Source: an uncultured Lachnospiraceae bacterium (GTDB lineage Bacteria; Bacillota; Clostridia; Lachnospirales; Lachnospiraceae). Taken from it: a stretch of DNA of 15,332 bases. Of this stretch, positions 1,731 through 15,038 are shown in pieces. Within the stretch, counting starts at the first letter, position 1; every line of letters begins with the position of its first letter. The stretch spans positions 1 through 15,332 of the forward strand of contig CALWEE010000015.1 of NCBI GenBank assembly GCA_944376975.1, written 5' to 3'. The position numbers and the translations under genes were made by a program. The notes under the pieces were generated by a model. It had not been told where the DNA came from, searched no databases, and saw only the letters and a list, made by a program, of their open reading frames with translations.

Positions 1731-2765
1731 ATGATGATCAAAAAACGATTTTTAACCACGTCCCTTTGTCTTACCCTGACCGTTTCCCTGCTGGCCGGCT
1801 GCTCCGGTTCCGGTGAAACCAGCGCCGTTACTTCGTCCGCTTCCGGCGAAGGAAGTTATACCATCGGCATCACCCAGTACGCGGAACACGGTTCCCTGGA
1901 CAACTGCCGGGAGGGCTTCCTTGAAGGACTTGCCGAAGCCGGCATTGAAGAAGGCGTCAACCTTAACATCCAGTTCCAGAACGCCCAGGCGGACAGCGGC
2001 GCCGCGACCCAGATCGCTTCCCAGTTCGTATCGGAAAAAGTGGATCTGATCTGCGCCATTGCCACGCCCAGCGCCCAGAGCTGTGTCAACGCCGCCCTGG
2101 ATACCGATATCCCCGTTGTCTATACTGCCGTGTCCGATCCGGTGGCCGCGTAACTGTCCACGGAGGACGGCATGCCGACCCAGAACGCCACCGGCACATC
2201 CGACAAGCTCCCGGTGTACGCCCAGCTTCAGCTTATCCGCGACATGCTCCCCGACGCCCGCTCCATCGGCATCCTCTATACGACCAGCGAAGTCAATTCC
2301 GAGTCGGCCATCGCCGAATATGAAGCCAAGGCCGGCGACTACGGTTTCGAGATCGTCACGGTGGGCATCAGCACTTCCGCCGATATTTCCCTGGCGGCAG
2401 ACAATATCCTCTCCCAGGTGGGCTGCCTGACCAATCTGACCGACAACACCGTTGTACAGGGGCGGCCCACGATCCTGGCGAAAGCCGGCGAGAAAAACAT
2501 CCCTGTTTTCGGAAGCGAGATCGAGCAAGTCAAAGTGGGCTGCCTGGCCGCCGCCGGCATTGATTATATCGAGCTTGGGAAAAAGACCGGCGAGATGGCC
2601 GCCAAAATACTGAAAGGCGAAGCGTCCGCCGAAGAAATGGCATATGAAACGTTTGAAACACCGAAGATCTACTTCAATCAGCAGGTGACCGACGATCTCG
2701 GCCTGACCGTTGATGAAAGCGTCATCGCCGACGCGGAGGTCTTCACCGAGATCAGCGAGGAATAA
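1731..2765 (+). pseudogene. trpX: trpX-type ABC transporter substrate-binding lipoprotein, interrupted by in-frame TAA
   Basis: Read through, this gives 344 positions, the normal length for the ABC_sub_bind (COG2984) binding proteins of trpXYZ systems. The N-terminus is a lipoprotein signal with basic MMIKKRF, a hydrophobic stretch and lipobox LAGC, with Cys24 as the lipid anchor. Codon 141 (2151-2153) is TAA, in the segment VSDPVAA-stop-LSTEDG, where relatives usually carry a Glu-Leu continuation; GAA to TAA is a one-base change. The frame afterwards is fully intact for 204 codons, with recognisable family sequence and no further lesion. GGAGG at 1721-1725 serves ATG 1731 or the adjacent ATG 1734. 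The gene is the first of trpXYZ and is T-box controlled. The full protein should be anchored outside the membrane and deliver tryptophan. It may be a recent null allele, a sequencing error, or two separately translated halves (1731-2153 and 2172-2765). The second half would have no signal peptide. Confidence 0.85.
2162..2174 (+). other. Possible translation restart after the trpX stop codon
   Basis: Just after the TAA at 2151-2153, GGAGG lies at 2162-2166. Five bases later an ATG at 2172 is in the original trpX frame and opens 197 further codons. Ribosomes ending at the TAA could restart here. The GGAGG arises from Thr-Glu-Asp codons that the family would carry anyway, so it may be chance. 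Confidence 0.4.
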
Positions 2766-2786
2766 GATCATCAGGAGGTTCCGATC

Positions 2787-3671
2787 ATGGATATGTTATT
2801 GAGCACGCTGGAGCAGGGCCTGATCTACGGCATCATGGCCCTGGGCGTCTATATCACCTACAAAATACTGGATTTTCCGGACCTGACCGTAGACGGCAGC
2901 TTCCCTCTGGGGGCTGCCCTCGCCGCGGTCCTGGTCACGAAGGGCGTCAACCCGTATCTGACCCTTTTAGCCGCTTTCGCCGGCGGCGTCCTGGCCGGTA
3001 TATGTACCGGCCTGATCCACGTCAAGCTGAAAGTACGGGATCTGCTTTCCGGCATCATCATGATGACGGCGCTCTACACCATCAACCTGAAGATCGCCGG
3101 CAAGGCCAACGTCCCCTTGTTCACGAAGGATACCATCTTTGACAACAGCCTGCTGGATGGTTTTGTTCCCGAAGCGCTGGCGCCTTATGTCACGCTGGCC
3201 ATCATCCTGATCATCACCCTGATCGCCAAATACCTGCTGGACGCTTATCTTAAGACCCGGTCCGGCTACCTTCTCCGGGCCGTCGGCGACAACGATACGC
3301 TGGTCACCTGTCTGGCCAAAGATCATGGACTGGTCAAGATCGTCGGTCTGGCCATCGCCAACGGACTGGTCGCCCTGGGCGGCGCCGTTTATGCCCATGA
3401 GGAACGGTTTTTCGATATATCCATGGGAACCGGCACCATGGTCATCGGTCTGGCGAGCGTCATCATCGGGACCAACCTGTTCAAGAACTTTACGGTCATC
3501 CGGGCCACTTCGTCGGTGCTGATCGGCTCCGTCATCTACAAAGGCTGCGTGGCCATCGCCATCGCCTGCGGCCTGGATTCTTCCAGCATGAAACTGATCA
3601 CGGCCGTATTGTTCCTGATCATCCTTGTCATCAGTATGGACCGGAAAAGGAAGGTGAAGACCCATGCTTGA
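2787..3671 (+). CDS. trpY: trpY-type ABC transporter permease
   Basis: This 294-residue integral membrane protein has about eight or nine hydrophobic segments, for example around residues 10-30, 38-52, 56-78, 132-150, 182-202 and 268-284. It belongs to the BPD_transp_2 (branched-chain-type) permeases paired with COG2984 binding proteins. The motif DFPDLTVDGSFPLGAA at residues 29-44 is characteristic of this permease group, and a basic C-terminus (DRKRKVKTHA) faces the cytoplasm. AGGAGG at 2772-2777 lies 9 bases before the ATG. The gene starts 21 bases after trpX and overlaps trpZ by 8 bases, so translation is probably coupled. It should form the membrane channel of a tryptophan importer; that substrate is inferred from the Trp T-box. 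The reading frame is intact. Confidence 0.9.
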   Translation: MDMLLSTLEQGLIYGIMALGVYITYKILDFPDLTVDGSFPLGAALAAVLVTKGVNPYLTLLAAFAGGVLAGICTGLIHVKLKVRDLLSGIIMMTALYTINLKIAGKANVPLFTKDTIFDNSLLDGFVPEALAPYVTLAIILIITLIAKYLLDAYLKTRSGYLLRAVGDNDTLVTCLAKDHGLVKIVGLAIANGLVALGGAVYAHEERFFDISMGTGTMVIGLASVIIGTNLFKNFTVIRATSSVLIGSVIYKGCVAIAIACGLDSSSMKLITAVLFLIILVISMDRKRKVKTHA

Positions 3672-4437
3672 GTTAAAACATATCCACAAATTCTATAATC
3701 CGGGGACGATCAACGAAATGTGCCTGTTCAGCGATTTCAGCCTGTCCGTGCAAAAAGGCGATTTCGTGTCCATCATCGGCAGCAACGGTTCCGGGAAAAC
3801 GTCCCTTTTGAACATCATCTGCGGCAGCATTCCCGTGGACGACGGCCAGGTTTTCATGAACGGCAAGGATATCACCAACGAAAAAGAGTATAAACGGTAT
3901 CGCCACATTGGCCGGGTATTCCAGAATCCCGCGCTGGGCACCTGCCCTTCCATGACCATACTGGAAAATATGTCCATCGCCGATAATAAAGCCGGATCTT
4001 TTAATCTTCGCCGGGGCACGGATAAAAAGCGGATCGACTATTACCGGGAACTTTTAAGCCAGCTGGATCTGGGTCTGGAAAATAAGCTGTATACGAAAGT
4101 CGGCTCCCTCTCCGGCGGCCAGCGCCAGGCCATGGCCCTTCTTATGTCAACCATGACGCCGGTGGAATTCCTCATCCTGGATGAGCATACCGCCGCCCTG
4201 GATCCGAAGACAGCCGATCTTATCATGGAACTGACCGACAAGATCGTCCGGGAAAAACACCTGACCACCATCATGGTCACCCATAACCTCCGCTACGCGG
4301 TGGAATACGGCAGCCGCCTGCTCATGATGCACCAGGGCGGCACTGTCCTGGATGTGTCGGGAAAAGAAAAAGAAAACGTGCGCATCGAAGACCTTCTGGA
4401 ACAGTTCAATCAGATCAGTATTGAGTGTGGGAATTAA
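3664..4437 (+). CDS. trpZ: trpZ-type ABC transporter ATPase
   Basis: This 257-residue nucleotide-binding subunit has all the usual parts in order: Walker A GSNGSGKTS at residues 39-47, Q-loop at Q87 (GRVFQNP), signature LSGGQ at 149-153, Walker B FLILDE at 169-174 with catalytic Glu174, and the switch histidine H207 (VTHN). The Walker B is followed by HTAALDP rather than the common PTAALDP, which is typical of this subgroup. It should dimerise on the cytoplasmic side and power the trpY permease. The ATG at 3664 lies inside the end of trpY (8-base overlap), with AAGGTGAAG just upstream as the ribosome binding site. It is the last gene of the T-box unit, followed by the terminator at 4501-4551. 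The ATPase role is certain; tryptophan as substrate is inferred from the leader and gene set. Confidence 0.92.
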   Translation: MLELKHIHKFYNPGTINEMCLFSDFSLSVQKGDFVSIIGSNGSGKTSLLNIICGSIPVDDGQVFMNGKDITNEKEYKRYRHIGRVFQNPALGTCPSMTILENMSIADNKAGSFNLRRGTDKKRIDYYRELLSQLDLGLENKLYTKVGSLSGGQRQAMALLMSTMTPVEFLILDEHTAALDPKTADLIMELTDKIVREKHLTTIMVTHNLRYAVEYGSRLLMMHQGGTVLDVSGKEKENVRIEDLLEQFNQISIECGN

Positions 4438-4562: not shown

Positions 4563-4979
4563 CTACAGATTCCACCGTCTGTTCTGAGAAAGTTTCAGCC
4601 GGTTCATGGCGCGGGCAAGGGAGGCCTGAGTATGGTAATATTCCTGGATACTCTGTTTCTGACGGAGACGTTCTTCCGCGTGCTCCTTCTGTTCCCTGGC
4701 GCGCCGGATATCGATATCTTCCGGTTTTTCCGCGGTATCCACGATCAGGGTCACACGGTTGTTGATCACTTCCGCGAATCCCTGTCCGAAGGCCACATCT
4801 TTCCATTCCCCTTCGGTGAGCTCCAGCTTGCCGATGCCGATAGCCATGGCGATGACCATATTCTCATGGTTGGGCAGGATACCCATCTCCCCGTCAGCGG
4901 CGGGAATGATCAGTTTCCGGCATCTGCCTTCGTAAAATACGCCGTCACTTGAAATGATCCTGAGACCAAATGTATCCAT
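4563..4979 (-). CDS. atpC: F1Fo ATP synthase epsilon subunit
   Basis: This is the 138-residue epsilon subunit of F1, part of the central stalk, which couples rotor to head and can inhibit ATP hydrolysis. The N-terminal beta-sandwich (about residues 1-85) shows the hallmark segment PAADGEMGILPNHENM at 26-41. The C-terminal two-helix hairpin (about 90-138) carries the charged stretch RRAREQKEHAEERLRQ. The length is normal. AAGGAG lies 9 bases before ATG 4979. The gene begins 12 bases after atpD, closes the operon and faces the terminator at 4501-4551. Confidence 0.95.
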   Translation of the reverse strand: MDTFGLRIISSDGVFYEGRCRKLIIPAADGEMGILPNHENMVIAMAIGIGKLELTEGEWKDVAFGQGFAEVINNRVTLIVDTAEKPEDIDIRRAREQKEHAEERLRQKQSIQEYYHTQASLARAMNRLKLSQNRRWNL

Positions 4980-4991
4980 ACGATCCGCTCC

Positions 4992-6398
<1,407 letters not shown>

Positions 6399-7292
6399 TC
6401 ACTTCCTTTTGCGCTTCTGCGCCCTGGCGCCCGCGCACACTTCTGTGATCTCCTGTGTGATCGCCGCCTGTCTGGCCCGGTTGTAAAGGACCGACAGCTC
6501 CTTGATCAGCTTGTTGGCGCTGTCCGTCGCGGACTTCATGGCCATCATCCGGGAATTATGCTCACTGGCGTAAGCCTCCACCAGACATCCATAGACCATA
6601 CCGTCCACGTAATTGGGCACGATGCTGTCCATCACGCTTTCAGCGGACGGATAAAGATCGATGGCCTCCCGGTACATGTTCAGGGGCATGATCATCTCGT
6701 TAAAGGAGCTTCTCTCAAGGGGCAGCAGTTTCAGCACTTCCGCTTCCAGATCCACGGAATTTTCCATACGGGTGAAGACGATATATACTTCGTCCAGCTC
6801 CCCGTTCAGGTACTTTCGCGTCATCACGTCTCCGATATCCCGCGCCCGATGGAGCGTCGGCTTCTGGACCGTATACTGGAAATGGGTGTCGATATCAATG
6901 TGCCGTTTCGCGAAATACTGCCTTCCCAGCTCGCCCACGACAAACAGCTTGTGGATACCCGGCCGGGCAAGGATCTCCTCTTCCAGTTTGATGATATTAT
7001 GGTTATAGGCGCCCGCCAGGCCCTTATCTCCGGTCACCACGATGGACGCGATCTTTCTTTCGTCCGCCGGTATCTTTTCCCGCTTGTCAAAGTAGGGATG
7101 GTGCATCTCGGGCAGATGGCGGAGGATACGGGATATCTCCCCCTGAAGGCTGTAGAAGTAAGGTTCCGTGGCCTCCAGTTTTCTCTTGGCCTGTGTCATC
7201 TTTGAGGAAGAGATCATATACATGGCATTGGTGATCTTCATCGTATCCTTAACGCTGTTGATCCTGCTCTGTATTTCTCTTATATTTGCCAT
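6399..7292 (-). CDS. atpG: F1Fo ATP synthase gamma subunit
   Basis: This 297-residue central shaft subunit is of normal length. The N-terminal helix (MANIREIQSRINSVKDTMKI) and the C-terminal helix with NSRMMAMKSATDSANKLI (about residues 245-262) are the conserved coiled-coil strands that turn inside the alpha-beta ring. The Rossmann-like middle includes VVTGDKGLAGAYN at about 85-97. The ATG at 7292 follows the atpHA stop codon (7294-7296) with one base between, and AGGTG precedes it, so translation is coupled. The C-terminal tail is unusually basic (AQKRKRK). Confidence 0.96.
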   Translation of the reverse strand: MANIREIQSRINSVKDTMKITNAMYMISSSKMTQAKRKLEATEPYFYSLQGEISRILRHLPEMHHPYFDKREKIPADERKIASIVVTGDKGLAGAYNHNIIKLEEEILARPGIHKLFVVGELGRQYFAKRHIDIDTHFQYTVQKPTLHRARDIGDVMTRKYLNGELDEVYIVFTRMENSVDLEAEVLKLLPLERSSFNEMIMPLNMYREAIDLYPSAESVMDSIVPNYVDGMVYGCLVEAYASEHNSRMMAMKSATDSANKLIKELSVLYNRARQAAITQEITEVCAGARAQKRKRK

Positions 7293-7293
7293 A

Positions 7294-9336
7294 TCAACAC
7301 CTGCTCTTTTTAAATTCGCCGGCTGCCTCTACGATCTGGCTGATCTGTTCTTCCGTCAGCGCTTTCGTCTCTTCGATCTGTCTTCCGATAGCCGGATATG
7401 TCCGGTCGAAATATTCAAGCATCTCCGCCTGGAAGGCTTTGACGTCTTTTTTGTCCACGCCGAGGAATACCCGATGGGTGGCCGCGCACAGCGTGATGAC
7501 CTTCTCCCGCAGGCTCATGGGATGGCCCAAGGGCTGTTTCAGCAGTTCCATCAATCCGCTTCCGTAATCCAGTTCTTCTTTTGTCGCCGGATCCAGATCG
7601 GAGCTGAACTGGGTAAACACTTCCATCTCCCGGTACTGGGCCAGGTCGATACGGATACTTCCCGACGCCTTTTTCATGGCTTTCGTCTGGGCCGCGCCGC
7701 CCACACGGGATACGGACAGGCCCACGTTGACCGCCGGACGCATACCGGAGGCGAACAGGCCGCTTTCCAGGAAGATCTGGCCGTCGGTGATGGAGATGAC
7801 GTTTGTCGGGATATAAGCCGAAACGTCGCCCGCCTGTGTCTCGATGATCGGCAGGGCGGTTATGGAACCGCCGCCCAGTCTGTCGCTCAGATGGCTGGAA
7901 CGTTCCAGCAGTCTGGAATGGAGATAGAACACGTCGCCCGGATAGGCTTCCCGTCCCGGAGAACGTCCCAAAAGCAGCGACAGGGCACGGTAAGCTACCG
8001 CGTGCTTGGACAGGTCGTCATAGACGATCAGCACATCCCGTCCCTGATACATGAAATATTCCGCCAAAGCGGTCCCCGCGTACGGGGCGATATACTGCAA
8101 GGGCGCGCAGTCGCTGGCCGTGGAGGATACCACAGTCGTATAATCCATGGCGCCGTAATGATCCAGCGTATTGACCACTTTCGCCACACTGGACGCTTTC
8201 TGTCCGATGGCGACATAAATACAGATGACATCTTTCCCCTTCTGGTTCAGGATCGTATCCAGGGCAATGGATGTCTTTCCGGTCTGACGGTCGCCGATGA
8301 TCAGCTCACGCTGTCCCCGGCCGATGGGGAACATGGCGTCGATGGCCAGTATGCCCGTCTCCATGGGCGTATCCACCGATTTCCTGTCCACGATGCCCGG
8401 CGCTTCCATCTCCACCGGACGGTAACCGTCGGCTTTGATGTCGCCCTTATCGTCAATGGGCGCGCCCAGGGCGTTGATGACACGTCCGATAAACTGTTCG
8501 CCTACCGGTATGCCGGCCCGTTTTCCGGTGCGGGAAACTTTCGTCCCCTCTCTTATCTCTGTATCGGATCCGAACAGGATACAGCCCACTTCATCCTTCC
8601 GGATATCCTGGACCATACCTTTCAGACCATTTTCAAATGTCACGATCTCTCCATACATGGCGTGGTCGATGCCGTGGATCGTGGCGATACCGTCGCCGAC
8701 GGAGAGTACCGTTCCTACTTCGCTTTCACTGCTGAAGCTGTCAAAGTTTTCGATCTCTTCCTTCAGGATGGAAATGATCGCGTCGGAATCCAGCTTCCCT
8801 GTTTTTGTGGAGCCCAGCGTCCGGCTCATCCGTTTCAGGCGGCCTTTCGTGCTCCAGTCGTATTCGTCGCAGTCCACTGTCAGGACAAATCCGCCCAGCA
8901 GGCTGTCGTCTTTTTGTATGTCGATACGCGCCGAACGGGCGTTGTATTTACGGCATATGAACTGGGAAAGCTTTTCAAGCTGCGCCGCGTCCGGCGCTTC
9001 CACGCACGCGAGGACGGCTTTCTGGACGCCTTTTTTGCGGTCCATCATGTCTTCATAAGCCTGAAAAACATCTGCCAGCGATTCCATCTGCGCATCCTGG
9101 CACATGCTTTTGAGCACGTCGCCCATGCTTTCCGGAAATGTCCGGTCGATGACCCGGCTTTTTTCCCGGAAAGGAACCGTTTTGTCCGAAAGGGTCTTTT
9201 CCAGTTCTTCCGTCTCTTTTATGATCCGGCCGGCTTCCCGTATATCTTCTTCGGGAACGTCCAGTTCATACAGCGACTGGGCATATTTTTTCGCCGCCAG
9301 AGAAATATAATGTCTATTTTTCTGTGTCTGATCCAT
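7294..9336 (-). CDS. atpA: Fused F1Fo ATP synthase delta-alpha subunit (AtpH-AtpA)
   Basis: One uninterrupted frame of 680 residues encodes two subunits that are normally separate. About residues 6-172 are the delta/OSCP subunit: its helical N-terminal domain has [13 protein letters not shown] near 13-25, and its C-terminal domain ends [13 protein letters not shown] and [14 protein letters not shown] short linker (GSTKTGK, 175-181) follows. From about 182 comes complete alpha: the N-terminal helix ([15 protein letters not shown]), [16 protein letters not shown], the non-catalytic site Walker [10 protein letters not shown] at 348-356, and the arginine finger Arg544 in [15 protein letters not shown]. 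No domain is visibly shortened. I chose ATG 9336 because GGTGAGG lies 6 bases upstream; a GTG at 9348 is possible but has no good site. The gene overlaps atpF by 23 bases. No other atpH lies in the operon. The only possible internal start for free alpha is Met170 (ATG 8829-8827), and it has no good ribosome binding site. Confidence 0.95.
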
Positions 9337-9823
9337 GGACGTCCTCACCTACTTCTTCCAAAAACTCGTCATATATCTTCTGGTTATCCTTTACCTGTCC
9401 GGATTTTTCCTCAACGATCTTCTGAGCGGCGCTCATGGCCAGACCGGCGATCTGGGACTGGAGCGCGTTCATGGACTGCTCCTGTTCCATCCGGATATTG
9501 GCCTTGGCGGATTCCATCAGGCTTCCGGCGTCTTCGCTGGCCTTCTGCATGACTTTATCGTACTCCGCCCGGGCGTCTTTCTGAGCCTGGGCCATGATAC
9601 GGGCAGATTCTTCCCTGGCCCCGCTGAGCGCGTCCGTATACTGTTTTTTCAGATCCATCGCGTCATTTTCCGCTTCTTTGGCCTTCCGGAAACCGTCTTC
9701 GATCATCTCTTTCCGCTTTTCCATGACGTTGGTCACAGGTTTAATGAGGAACTTCTTTAAAAGGAAGACGAGGACGATCAGATTTATTATAGTATAGAGA
9801 AAATTCAGATTAAACTGCAGCAC
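9314..9823 (-). CDS. atpF: F1Fo ATP synthase b subunit
   Basis: This is the 169-residue peripheral-stalk subunit. One N-terminal membrane helix (about residues 4-24, [20 protein letters not shown]) is followed by the conserved [14 protein letters not shown] and a long charged helix that would dimerise. Its far end normally binds delta; here that partner is the N-terminal part of the fused delta-alpha protein encoded next. The start is GTG 9823, because no ATG is available before the membrane helix. The upstream AGGTAGGAG is close but present. The stop lies inside the start region of the fusion gene, giving a 23-base overlap. Confidence 0.93.
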
Positions 9824-9859: not shown

Positions 9860-10081
9860 TTATAAGAAGAAAATGATCAAAACGCCGATGATGAAACCGT
9901 AGATGGCGGTTGCCTCGGCCAGGGCGCATCCAAGGATGAAGTTCTTGCTGATCTTGCCTTCCGCTTCCGGCTGTCTGGCAATAGCTTCCGCTGATTTCGC
10001 TGTGGCGATACCGATACCAACGCCGGCTCCGATACCGGCCAAAACTGCGATTCCCGCTCCGATTGCGATAAGTGCTTCCAT
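9860..10081 (-). CDS. atpE: F1Fo ATP synthase c subunit (rotor ring)
   Basis: This 73-residue two-helix hairpin forms the membrane rotor ring. Helix 1 is glycine/alanine-rich (GAGIAVLAGIGAGVGIGIA), the polar loop is ARQPEAEG at 35-42, and the ion-binding carboxylate in helix 2 is Glu56 (ALAEATAIYG). Sodium-binding c subunits such as that of Ilyobacter carry Gln in helix 1 (GVGQG) and Ser after the Glu. Here those positions are Ile23 and Ala57, though Thr58 is kept. This argues for protons rather than sodium, but it is an inference from few residues. AAGGAG precedes ATG 10081. Confidence 0.97.
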   Translation of the reverse strand: MEALIAIGAGIAVLAGIGAGVGIGIATAKSAEAIARQPEAEGKISKNFILGCALAEATAIYGFIIGVLIIFFL

Positions 10082-10116: not shown

Positions 10117-10773
10117 TTACTCCATCTCTTCCGTCATGAACAGGGCGGTGAGAAATACAAATACATACGCCTGGATCAGGCCGTCAAAAATATCGAAATA
10201 AAAACTCAGCGGGATGGGAACGATCAGCGGCACAAACGCCTTGATAAGTTCCATGACTACAAATCCTGCCAGTATATTTCCAAAAAGCCGCATGCACAGC
10301 GACAATGGCCGGATAAAGATCTCCAGGACCATGATGGGAGCCACGATGGCCACCGGCTTGGCGAAATGCTTCATCCAGTGTTTCACTCCGTTTTTGTAGA
10401 TCCCGGAAAATTCGATCAGGCACATACTCATGATCGCAAGGGCCGCTGTCACGTTCAGGTCCTTTGTCGGCGGTTTGAATCCGAAAAGCCCGATGGTATT
10501 GGACACTCCCAGGTAAATGAGCACCGTCGTCAGATACGGTATGTATCTGCGGTTGGATTTTCCCAGGATGCCTTCAAAGAAATCGTTGGTCCAGCTGATG
10601 CCCGATTCCAGGAGCAGCTGGATCTTCCCCGGATTTTCCACCTTCAGATTTCGGGTCAGAAGGATGGAGGCGATCACGAGCACCGCCATGATGATCCAGG
10701 TAACGACCACGGACTCAGATATACCGCCCAGGACCGGAACTTCAAACACCGTCTTGCAGTTCAGCTGATCCAT
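10117..10773 (-). CDS. atpB: F1Fo ATP synthase a subunit
   Basis: This 218-residue membrane stator subunit forms the ion half-channels against the c-ring. The essential arginine is Arg162 in MRLFGNILAG (161-170), preceded by EIFIRPLSL. Five or six hydrophobic segments are visible, around residues 22-40, 80-98, 110-125, 140-158, 165-188 and 196-212. The length is at the short end, as in many Clostridia. ATG 10773 has no obvious Shine-Dalgarno sequence, and no better in-frame start lies between it and the promoter. It is the first gene of the operon; I see no atpI ahead of it. Confidence 0.94.
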   Translation of the reverse strand: MDQLNCKTVFEVPVLGGISESVVVTWIIMAVLVIASILLTRNLKVENPGKIQLLLESGISWTNDFFEGILGKSNRRYIPYLTTVLIYLGVSNTIGLFGFKPPTKDLNVTAALAIMSMCLIEFSGIYKNGVKHWMKHFAKPVAIVAPIMVLEIFIRPLSLCMRLFGNILAGFVVMELIKAFVPLIVPIPLSFYFDIFDGLIQAYVFVFLTALFMTEEME

Positions 10774-12311: not shown

Positions 12312-13154
12312 TTACGCCTTTCTTTCGATATACCTTTCCAGCTCGTCGAAACTTTTCGGTGCCGGCAGCGCCGCGTCGATCAGGCCTTTCCCGATCAACT
12401 TCCGGTACAGTTTCAATACCTCCGGCATGTGTATATCCGCTTTTTCAAGAACCCTTTCATCGGAAAGCAGACGGATGGGCTCTCCCTGGGCCACGACCCG
12501 TCCTTCCTTCATAAGGATCAGATCGTCCGCCCATTCCAGGGCGTGATCCACGTCATGGGTGGCCACGATCACCGTCATGCCGGTGTCGGACAGATGGTCC
12601 GTGAGCGCCCGCAACGTCCGGACGTGCCCCGGGTCCAGCGCCGCGAAAGGTTCGTCCAGTATGAGTATATCCGGCGCCATCACCAGGATATCCGCCAGCG
12701 CCACCTGTTTTTTCTGCCCGCCGCTCAACGCGTGGGCCGGCCGGTCTTTAAAGGGGGTGATGCCCATCCGCGCGATCATATCCTCCACCCGCGCCCGTGC
12801 CTCCGTTTCCGTAAGTCCCAGGTTTAAAGGGCCGAACGCTATTTCCTGATAAACGCTGGCCGACAAAAGCTGGACGTCCGGATTCTGGAAGACGATCCCC
12901 ACTTTCCGCCGCAGTTTGAGCAGTTCTTTTCTTTTATATACGATGGGTTTGCCCGCAATGGATATCTGGCCCGCGTCCGGCCTTAATATCCCGTTGCAGC
13001 ACAGGAAAAACGTGGACTTCCCGGAGCCATTGGCGCCCATGAAGACCGTCCGGCTGCCCTTTTTTACAGACAGGCTCAGATCGTTCAGCGACGGCGTATG
13101 ACCATCATCGTAGGCATACGACACGTGCCGCGCTTCCAGGATCATCTCATCCAT
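12312..13154 (-). CDS. cbiO: Cobalt ECF-type transporter ATPase CbiO
   Basis: This 280-residue ABC ATPase powers the CbiMNQO cobalt importer. Walker A GANGSGKST is at residues 40-48, the Q-loop VFQNPDVQLLS at 88-98, the signature LSGGQKK at 143-149, Walker B ILILDE at 163-168 with catalytic Glu168, and the switch His200 (ATHD). The VFQNPD-Q-L form of the Q-loop is typical of ECF-type ATPases. I chose ATG 13154 because GGGAG lies 8 bases upstream; a GTG at 13169 has no site. Its start overlaps the end of cbiQ by 13 bases. It is the last gene of the operon and directly abuts a terminator. A C-terminal extension of about 60 residues (from about 220) is usual for CbiO. Confidence 0.95.
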   Translation of the reverse strand: MDEMILEARHVSYAYDDGHTPSLNDLSLSVKKGSRTVFMGANGSGKSTFFLCCNGILRPDAGQISIAGKPIVYKRKELLKLRRKVGIVFQNPDVQLLSASVYQEIAFGPLNLGLTETEARARVEDMIARMGITPFKDRPAHALSGGQKKQVALADILVMAPDILILDEPFAALDPGHVRTLRALTDHLSDTGMTVIVATHDVDHALEWADDLILMKEGRVVAQGEPIRLLSDERVLEKADIHMPEVLKLYRKLIGKGLIDAALPAPKSFDELERYIERKA

Positions 13155-13939
13155 AACATCCACTCCCACTTTGTCACATCCGCCAGGATCATCCCGAGCA
13201 AAAGCGCCTCGAACCCGGCGATCTTAAGGATCTCCCCGGCCTTCGGCGGCCGGCTTTCACGAAGCATATGTATCGTCCCGTCATAGCACCGGGATTCCAT
13301 GGCGTCATAGATGGCGCCGGCGCGCCGGATCGCCAATAAAAACAACGATGTCGCCAGCATCCCCCGGCACCGAAGCCACGTCTTTTTGTCCCTGTCGCCC
13401 AGCCGGGAACGTTGGGAGACGGTCATCCAGGCCGCCGTTTCCAGAAGGATGAACAGGAACCGGTAGGTCAGCAGCATCAACTCCGTCAGAACGGAGGGAA
13501 GGCGCCAGCTTTCAAACAACGTCAACATATCGGTCATGGGCGTGGAAAGCGACAGGAAATACAGGCAGGATACGCCGGCCAGGGCGGTCGATACCATCTG
13601 TACGCCCCGGAAAAGCCCTTCTTTGCTCCCGGTCAGATACAGACCGCCGACGGGTATGGCAAAGGCGTCCAGCGGTTCCCCGGATACGTTGACCATCACC
13701 GCGGCCGTTCCCGCCAGCAGAAAGCCCAAGGGGATCAGCATCAGTTTCATATAGCGTCCCGGCGCGATGCCGCTTTTTCCCACGTTGATGGCGGACATGA
13801 CCGCCAGGACAAAAAGGGCCATGACCACCGACCGGCTGACCAGGCAGCCGATCAGGGTCAGAAAGGAAAACGCGAACTTTTCTCCGGTGTTCATATATCG
13901 GAGCCGGGACACGTAGCAGATCTTATCGATAACCGGCAT
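13142..13939 (-). CDS. cbiQ: Cobalt ECF transporter transmembrane protein CbiQ
   Basis: This 265-residue T-component links the ATPase to the substrate-binding CbiM. Hydrophobic segments lie at about residues 22-52, 65-84, 112-132 and 150-172, with another at the C-terminus (about 240-256). The coupling helices end in motifs that correspond to the family's paired Ala-Arg-Gly signatures, but they read SQRSRLG (175-181) and AMESRCYDG (213-221), so Gly is replaced by Leu and Cys. The arginines that contact the ATPase are kept. AGGAGAG precedes ATG 13939. It follows cbiN by 12 bases and overlaps cbiO. Confidence 0.92.
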   Translation of the reverse strand: MPVIDKICYVSRLRYMNTGEKFAFSFLTLIGCLVSRSVVMALFVLAVMSAINVGKSGIAPGRYMKLMLIPLGFLLAGTAAVMVNVSGEPLDAFAIPVGGLYLTGSKEGLFRGVQMVSTALAGVSCLYFLSLSTPMTDMLTLFESWRLPSVLTELMLLTYRFLFILLETAAWMTVSQRSRLGDRDKKTWLRCRGMLATSLFLLAIRRAGAIYDAMESRCYDGTIHMLRESRPPKAGEILKIAGFEALLLGMILADVTKWEWMLWMR

Positions 13940-13951
13940 GACTTTTCTCTC

Positions 13952-14272
13952 CTATCGTTCTTCCTGCCTGTCCATCCACTTCTTCCGTTCCACCAGTCGG
14001 CCCATGAAAAAGGCAATGACGCCCACGCCGATACCGGTCTGGACACAGAAGATCAGGCTTTCGATCTCGCCCGGCAGTTCCCGGCCAAGGAAACGCTCCA
14101 ACACCGGCGTAAACCAGGGCTCATAGGCTTTTCCGGTCACTTCCTCCACCATGACGCTCCCCGCGTCATCCGAGCCGCCAAAATCGGCGTCTTTGCGGAC
14201 GAACAGGGGAAACAGGGTCAAAATGACGACGACCGCCAACAAGATCAGCACTGTGCGCGTTGTTTTGCTCAT
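13952..14272 (-). CDS. cbiN: Cobalt transport accessory protein CbiN
   Basis: This 106-residue protein has the CbiN layout: an N-terminal membrane helix (about residues 7-24, VLILLAVVVILTLFPLFV), an extracellular stretch containing DADFGGSDDAGSVMVEEV, and a C-terminal membrane helix (about 75-92). CbiN assists CbiM in loading cobalt. I chose ATG 14272, one base after the cbiM stop, because GGGAGG lies 9 bases upstream; an ATG at 14290 would overlap cbiM and lack a site. The middle segment KAYEPWFTPVLE also fits the family. Confidence 0.9.
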   Translation of the reverse strand: MSKTTRTVLILLAVVVILTLFPLFVRKDADFGGSDDAGSVMVEEVTGKAYEPWFTPVLERFLGRELPGEIESLIFCVQTGIGVGVIAFFMGRLVERKKWMDRQEER

Positions 14273-14273
14273 A

Positions 14274-15038
14274 TCACTTACCCTCCCCATAATATCCGAT
14301 CATTTTCAGTTCCGGTTTCGCGTAAGACTCCAGTCCGATGATGATGACCACGGTCAGTATGCCTTCGATCACCGCCAAAGGCAGCTGGGTCGGCGCGAAC
14401 ACGCCGAGGAACTTGAGGATTGAAGCGGCCACGCCGCCTTGTTCCGACGGATGGGCGAAGGCCAGCTGGACGCTGGTGACGCAGTAGGTCAGCAGGTCGC
14501 CCAAAGCCGCCGCCAGAAAGATGCTCACCCGTCTGTTCACCCGGGCTTTCACGCATATCTTATAAACGATCCAGGCGCATATCGGTCCGGCGATCGCCAT
14601 GGAAAAGGTATTGGCGCCCAGCGTGGTCAGCCCGCCGTGTCCGAGCAGAAGGGCCTGGAACAGAAGGACGATCAGTCCGAGGACGCTCACGGCGGCCGGC
14701 CCGAATAAAATGGCGCCCATTCCCGTCCCGGTCATATGGGAGCAGCTGCCGCTCACCGACGGGATCTTCAGGGACGATATGACAAAGATAAAGGCCCCGG
14801 ACATGGCGAGAAGGACAAGGGCCTTCCGGTTCTCCTCCATGGTCTTTCCTATGGACCTCAGCCCCGCCGCGACAAACGGCAGGCAGGCCGCGCCCCAGGC
14901 CGCGCAGTAAGACGCCGGCAGATAGCCTTCCATAATGTGCATGGCATAGGTCGGCACGCCCATCAGCAGCAGGACGGCCGGCAGCATGGCCAGCGGTATT
15001 TTTTGTTTTCCGGTCTGTGTCATCCGCACATGTTTCAT
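14274..15038 (-). CDS. cbiM: Cobalt ECF transporter substrate-binding protein CbiM
   Basis: This 254-residue membrane protein captures cobalt. A signal peptide ends PTYA at residue 32. Cleavage there exposes MHIMEGYLP (33-41), whose N-terminal Met-His pair is the known metal-binding end of CbiM. Another conserved stretch is SGSCSHMTGTGMGAILFGP (96-114), and its His101 is also a metal ligand in the family. Six or so further hydrophobic segments follow. AAAGGAG lies 8-9 bases before ATG 15038. It is the first gene of cbiMNQO and is controlled by the cobalamin riboswitch upstream, which supports cobalt rather than nickel. Confidence 0.95.
   Translation of the reverse strand: MKHVRMTQTGKQKIPLAMLPAVLLLMGVPTYAMHIMEGYLPASYCAAWGAACLPFVAAGLRSIGKTMEENRKALVLLAMSGAFIFVISSLKIPSVSGSCSHMTGTGMGAILFGPAAVSVLGLIVLLFQALLLGHGGLTTLGANTFSMAIAGPICAWIVYKICVKARVNRRVSIFLAAALGDLLTYCVTSVQLAFAHPSEQGGVAASILKFLGVFAPTQLPLAVIEGILTVVIIIGLESYAKPELKMIGYYGEGK

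Follow-up and report, generated by a model that had tools for sequence, protein, structure and literature searches.

In F-type ATP synthases, one delta subunit and one peripheral stalk per F1 count as the rule, and the H+/ATP ratio is taken to be set by the c ring. The locus analysed in this study raises the question of what becomes of this rule when delta and alpha are encoded as a single polypeptide. It lies in a 15,332-nucleotide stretch of DNA from an uncultured Lachnospiraceae bacterium, which is referred to below as the window, and on its minus strand the ORF 7294-9348 holds a complete delta (OSCP) and a complete alpha in one frame of 684 codons. We propose that the enzyme would have three delta subunits per F1, that their C-terminal domains (CTDs) may seat extra stalks, whose number would vary from one to three, and that the fusion is recent and independent; taken as a whole, we consider the chances of this proposal to be about even.

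The fusion gene (atpH-atpA, 7294..9336, minus strand) is open from a GTG at 9348, but translation probably begins at ATG 9336, which has a Shine-Dalgarno sequence of -7.7 kcal/mol and gives a protein of 680 aa. Its delta part (8815..9294, minus strand) comprises a six-helix N-terminal domain (NTD, residues 17-105) and an alpha/beta CTD (residues 108-179); Pfam OSCP aligns to residues 19-178 with 78 bits (profile 2-172 of 172), and PS3 delta (6n2y_I) is matched across the two domains, while the NTD scored 118 bits against a profile made from the fused set, the window included. The alpha part (7303..8790, minus strand) is full length according to TIGR00962 and the alignment, with the N-terminal helix, the P-loop GDRQTGKT and the C-terminal domain. 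Three ATP-synt_ab Pfam domains were matched in the fusion, and NCBIfam atpA (TIGR00962) covers residues 187-682 with 752 bits against a cut-off of 484. Only about eight residues separate the OSCP and atpA matches (junction, 8791..8814, minus strand). The operon has the order a-c-b-[delta-alpha]-gamma-beta-epsilon and runs on the minus strand from 10773 to 4563, with one gene each for subunits a (atpB, 10117..10773) and b (atpF, 9314..9823, a separate gene whose last bases overlap the beginning of the fusion), followed in the Pfam annotation by those for gamma (atpG, 6399..7292), beta (atpD, 4992..6389) and epsilon (atpC, 4563..4979); subunit c (atpE) is encoded at 9860..10081. All eight subunit domains of an F-type ATP synthase are thus found in one operon, and both they and the gene order are those of the canonical bacterial F-ATPase, in which, however, delta and alpha are separate.

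The earlier note on this DNA had seen no separate atpH in the operon, which proved correct, and the genome did not supply one either. The assembly (1.83 Mb, 274 contigs, 91% complete) contains no second OSCP match and no second atpA above the cut-off, the fusion gene being the sole match to each; a separate atpH or atpA elsewhere in the genome was accordingly not found at this completeness. A weak match to the atpA profile (22 bits) at G000:C137:1038-1505, within a 553-codon frame, possibly belongs to a V-type catalytic subunit. One sampled congener of the window's organism (G289, 99% complete) seems to be without an F-ATPase, since OSCP, the junction profile and subunit b were all without a match in it.

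The origin of the fusion was traced using alpha trees of 119, 160 and 46 rows, which part the canonical operons of the window's family from a second lineage that comprises the fused forms and 16 split operons. In the 46-row tree, the window and L122 (Candidatus Onthocola gallistercoris, of a genus that NCBI places in Bacilli incertae sedis; the one locus that a scan of genome contigs brought up) were sisters (100/100) with the split L117 next to them (97/91), and all three belonged to a nine-row set, seven members of which are split (100/99). The same nine-row set was recovered in the 160-row tree (99), though with L117 not sister to the pair. A single clade for all 25 fused second-lineage rows was rejected (AU test, p 0.00045, 25 versus 21 rows), in a test for which we chose the 46 of the 160 rows and defined the group after the earlier trees had been seen. 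Because one fused clade was rejected and the window's own set is mostly split, the trees indicate that the window's fusion arose on its own and recently, within a group of unfused relatives. For the deep second lineage, the three trees differ on the order of fusion and fission, and 38 further split loci from the family are in none of them.

The junctions of these relatives bear on whether the fused frame is real. In all seven split members of the nine-row set, the delta stop TGA lies inside the Shine-Dalgarno sequence of alpha (GGAGGTGA), and alpha is in the -1 frame in six of them and in frame in L034; the junction layout differs in the more distant split loci L060 and L088. With the nearest relatives split in this way, a sequencing or assembly indel that deleted the stop between two ordinary genes could have mimicked a fusion, and two metagenomic fusions (P0003 and P0004) do, by eye, resemble frame changes of split genes. 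For the window, however, we regard such an indel as scarcely credible. The fused ORF of L122 likewise spans 684 codons and aligns without a gap across the 665 codons compared, even though the DNA has diverged, with 82% identity for the delta NTD, 80% for the CTD, 65% over the junction (18 codons) and 84% for alpha. The dN and dS values were 0.094 and 0.83 for the NTD, 0.057 and 1.83 for the CTD, 0.32 and 1.20 for the junction and 0.052 and 0.885 for alpha, and by these estimates purifying selection acts on both domains of the fused delta. Since a second species keeps the frame under purifying selection, a sequencing or assembly error was ruled out for the window, from which the Shine-Dalgarno sequence, the delta stop and the alpha start of the nearest split relatives are all gone. 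The full delta and full alpha that had been noticed in one frame were therefore confirmed both by the Pfam and NCBIfam matches and by L122. Relatives in which atpH and atpA are separate had been named as a finding that would speak against the fusion; the nearest unfused relatives are indeed split, but because L122 has the fusion too, they date it rather than refute it. In the split genes behind fusions like P0003 and P0004, the frame 5' of the alpha start is open, and frame changes can therefore easily fuse split delta and alpha genes.

A fused gene may still yield some free alpha, as the earlier note had allowed, and a mixed population could then arise in which internal translation or proteolysis supplies free alpha or an NTD-less delta-alpha (deltaDeltaN-alpha) and F1 contains one fusion and two alpha subunits. 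For the window, this option found no support in translation. Close to alpha, the sole start codon in frame is an ATG that precedes the alpha match by 14 codons; it has -3.2 kcal/mol, where starts within alpha have a median of -2.3 kcal/mol. As the site, stop and start of the split relatives are gone and the remaining ATG is weak, free alpha made by translation is unlikely in the window, to judge from the gene sequence. Across the fused genes, a near-alpha start with a Shine-Dalgarno sequence of -5 kcal/mol or lower was found in 13 of 73 (7/27 with the NTD, 26%; 6/46 without it, 13%), which is near the background of 20% for 860 comparable stretches inside alpha, whereas the alpha-start site reaches -8 kcal/mol or lower in 16/16 split second-lineage loci. 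Moreover, 40 of the 73 have no start codon at all in the near-alpha stretch, and starts at the boundary of the NTD and CTD were not in excess (4 of the 27 fused genes with the NTD). It must be said in favour of a mixed population that true alpha starts are not always strong, as only 18 of 30 canonical loci reach -5 kcal/mol, and that L075, an NTD-bearing fusion, has a TTG located two codons upstream of the alpha match with the strongest Shine-Dalgarno sequence of the 73 (-8.5 kcal/mol). Because this strong site is kept, L075 might still make free alpha; apart from it, internal starts for alpha or deltaDeltaN-alpha gave no clear signal over background. Overall, we think it improbable that a mixed population is the explanation.

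The earlier note could not say how widespread the arrangement is and had suggested a domain-architecture search; the arrangement proved not to be unique. When residues 1-200 of the window's fusion were used as a protein query, 138 proteins were found, and among the matches listed all 120 carry OSCP and alpha domains; 119 of these have 661-693 aa and the remaining one is a 446-aa fragment. As many as 107 share a length of 672 aa and have much the same score, and are therefore mostly near copies. One listed protein bears the name Suilimivivens. In the 397 genomes of the window's family, which were screened with a junction profile before the loci were fetched, at least 74 fused frames were present (27 with and 47 without the NTD, the partial frame G147 being left out), and at least 16 more were found beyond the family in a screen of 398 phylum genomes, including G588, which is cut by a contig end. 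All 15 of the outside-family fusions that were fetched are without the NTD. In the 160-row tree they fall into groups of 11 and three rows elsewhere and one row in the second lineage, while four of them cluster together in the 46-row tree; because these groupings differ, the number of their origins is unsure. The two classes are also distinguished by the residues that precede the delta CTD, which number 94-119 in the proteins with the NTD and 2-80 in those without, with the exceptions of L052 and L184, two copies of one locus (109 residues that by eye read as noncoding), and of L095 (191 residues, which hold subunit b). No separate delta was found on the same strand in any of the 77 fused operons that are at least 8 kb long. 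A canonical delta is present elsewhere in 46 of the 74 fusion-bearing family genomes and absent from the other 28, the window's among them, according to a tally by hand of best OSCP E-values of 1e-35 or lower.

The exception L095 is a triple fusion, as b, the delta CTD and alpha form one protein of 778 residues (L095:6156-8492, genome G068), in which the b domain scored 126 bits; no other b was found in G068, which is 96% complete. The arrangement recurs in the protein cluster P0121 (781 aa, 34 members, five contigs; Pfam b, OSCP and alpha), which is 97% identical to the triple fusion over 270 query residues. Unless the protein is cleaved, each alpha of such a b-deltaDeltaN-alpha enzyme should, from its gene, bear a b. 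In the literature searched, no report of a full-length delta-alpha fusion was found, in searches that did not name b-delta-alpha, and mention of natural delta-alpha fusions was found only in Ueno et al. 2025 (PMC12229609).

The NTD appears to have been lost many times. Fused proteins with and without it are interspersed in the trees, where the NTD-less label needs 12-13 changes, with at least seven changes forced by starred branches; in the 46-row tree, which has only six NTD-less rows, five changes are needed and four are forced. Among the unfused deltas, none of the 85 checked is without the NTD. This set consists of 30 canonical deltas, which are the 30 best OSCP hits and hence biased towards full length, 16 split deltas of the second lineage, the 38 further split family loci and L238, the last two having been chosen by CTD and alpha matches, with L239, truncated at a contig end, left out. 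Among the fused proteins, NTD loss is frequent, and it was seen only in them. Helices 1 and 5 of the OSCP NTD are described as binding the N-terminal helix of alpha (PMC4057687). The entropy of helix 1 was 2.11 bits in the older fused proteins with the NTD, 1.26 in their split relatives and 0.54 in canonical delta, while that of the rest of the NTD was unchanged (1.62, 1.74 and 1.51, respectively), as calculated from 24 fused proteins (without the window, L094 and L075), 16 split and 28 canonical ones, each subsampled to 14. A relaxation of the whole NTD in the fused proteins was not observed relative to alpha, and only helix 1 is eroded: the ratio of NTD to alpha distances was 4.2 in the fused proteins with the NTD versus 5.2 in split relatives (alpha distance 0.20-0.35), although relative to the CTD the NTD was somewhat faster in the former (1.44 versus 1.18). 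Because it is not relaxed relative to alpha, the NTD of these proteins presumably still does something and possibly holds a single stalk. Our reading of these patterns is a series in which fusion would have been followed by weaker contacts between the NTD and alpha and then by loss of the NTD. The window, whose helix 1 keeps the canonical-like motif YAQSLYEL, would on its sequence be a young fusion in which the NTD is still intact.

The Na+-type c ring, as opposed to the H+ type, is marked by Gln and Glu-Thr/Ser in subunit c. At the key columns, Ile and Glu-Ala are found in the c subunit of the window, which thus has the H+-type pattern, whereas Gln and Glu-Thr were found in all eight canonical operons that were fetched from the family (L168, L169, L170 and L188-L192). 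The c frames of the second lineage in the family have Ile, Met or Leu at the Gln column in 79/79 cases; outside the family, Gln is present in three of 15 fused operons. As 46 of the 74 fusion genomes also have a canonical delta, and the canonical c is of the Na+ type and that of the second lineage is not, many of these bacteria seem to hold both a Na+ and an H+ F-ATPase, the H+ one being often fused. The split second-lineage operon L088 has two identical subunit c frames in tandem, and the canonical atpA of L189 is in two frames (331 and 181 codons), which may reflect either a broken gene or an assembly error.

In mycobacteria, delta is fused with b in a protein that is present in one copy per enzyme, and that fusion therefore does not force three delta subunits. 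It joins delta to a stator partner, as in the window, to whose delta it has a weak sequence match (PDB 7jg5 chain d), but the partner differs from the window's alpha. The closest precedent is an engineered one: Ueno et al. deleted the delta NTD of Bacillus PS3 and joined the CTD to alpha, and the resulting deltaDeltaN-alpha FoF1 carried as many as three stalks, together with their a subunits, and reached an H+/ATP ratio of 5.8 versus 3.0 (PMC12229609). The authors argue that the NTD, which lies on the symmetry axis, restricts the number of stalks to one, and they point to a natural NTD-less delta-alpha fusion in Acidaminococcus fermentans (PMC12229609). The window resembles the engineered enzyme (PDB 9jc1) in the short link from the delta CTD to the alpha N-terminus, but it is natural and keeps the NTD, with OSCP matched from profile position 2. 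It shares with the A. fermentans fusion a natural origin in an ATP synthase operon, whereas the NTD of the latter is reported missing; the NTD-less relatives of the window have been repeatedly trimmed in the manner of the engineered PS3 motor (PMC12229609). An AlphaFold model of the window's fusion (15 sequences) had a mean pLDDT of 63, with 77-87 for the six NTD helices (17-105), 73-83 for the CTD, which falls to 52-64 over residues 161-180, and under 50 for the junction and alpha helix 1 (178-207); alpha was poorly modelled. A Foldseek search with this model placed chains I, K and J of 9jc1 at ranks 1, 2 and 4, but with a TM of about 0.4 and a weak alpha model these matches are driven by sequence similarity and carry little geometric weight.

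From the single gene, delta and alpha would be made as one polypeptide, and the genome has no known gene for either subunit by itself. Since the genome's only known delta and alpha are those of the fusion gene, three delta subunits per F1 are to be expected, and each alpha3beta3 head would have a delta module attached to each of its three alpha N-terminal helices. Each delta CTD would sit on its own alpha and could bind a b2 stalk and the a subunit that goes with it, and in principle more than one peripheral stalk per enzyme is possible, by analogy with the engineered motor and also from the relatives. The central dimple on the symmetry axis would take one delta NTD at most, with the other two displaced, and because only one NTD fits there, the number of stalks is probably variable, from one to three. 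The view that three delta subunits crowd or change the stator had already been put forward, and it is upheld by gene content and by the engineered precedent, which support an affected stator architecture with up to three delta subunits per F1, while the free alpha that had been offered beside it was not upheld for the window. Extra delta CTDs that seat extra peripheral stalks are an option beyond those considered in that note.

The main rival for the window is an enzyme with three delta subunits and a single stalk, in which only one delta, whose NTD occupies the central dimple, binds b2 and the other two are idle and tolerated. The window itself offers much that agrees with it: a full NTD that is kept and constrained here and in L122 (dN/dS about 0.11), a canonical-like helix 1, and one a and one b gene, together with the attribution of the one-stalk rule to the NTD by Ueno et al. 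(PMC12229609). Such an enzyme is harder to reconcile with the fused relatives, in which the NTD was repeatedly deleted and helix 1 eroded, and hardest with the b-delta-alpha form, where an idle delta would imply an idle b too. We therefore regard a single stalk as quite possible for the window but rather doubtful. The multi-stalk reading draws on the restriction of NTD loss to fused proteins (47/74 in the family and 15/15 outside it, versus 0/85 unfused). Extended to the whole second, H+-type F-ATPase lineage of anaerobic Bacillota, it would mean that the lineage has repeatedly become multi-stalk, by fusion, by shedding the NTD and, once, by fusing b, with the window at an early stage; we advance this extension tentatively and hold it to be somewhat less probable than its opposite. 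If it is true, the number of protons moved per ATP by such enzymes would be two to three times higher, and in the b-fused lineage every alpha would bear its own stalk. Natural enzymes in which three delta subunits are seemingly unavoidable, and from which the NTD has been repeatedly lost, make the one-stalk rule directly testable, and the forms with the NTD, without it and with b provide a series for the evolution of stalk number and coupling ratio.

The operon has transporter genes on both sides. On one side, an apparent ABC transporter lies on the plus strand at 1731-4437, with putative genes for the substrate-binding protein, the permease and the ATPase, the first of them in two frames (1731-2153 and 2172-2765). 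On the other side, a cbiM/cbiO cobalt-type transporter cluster is found on the minus strand at 12312-15038.
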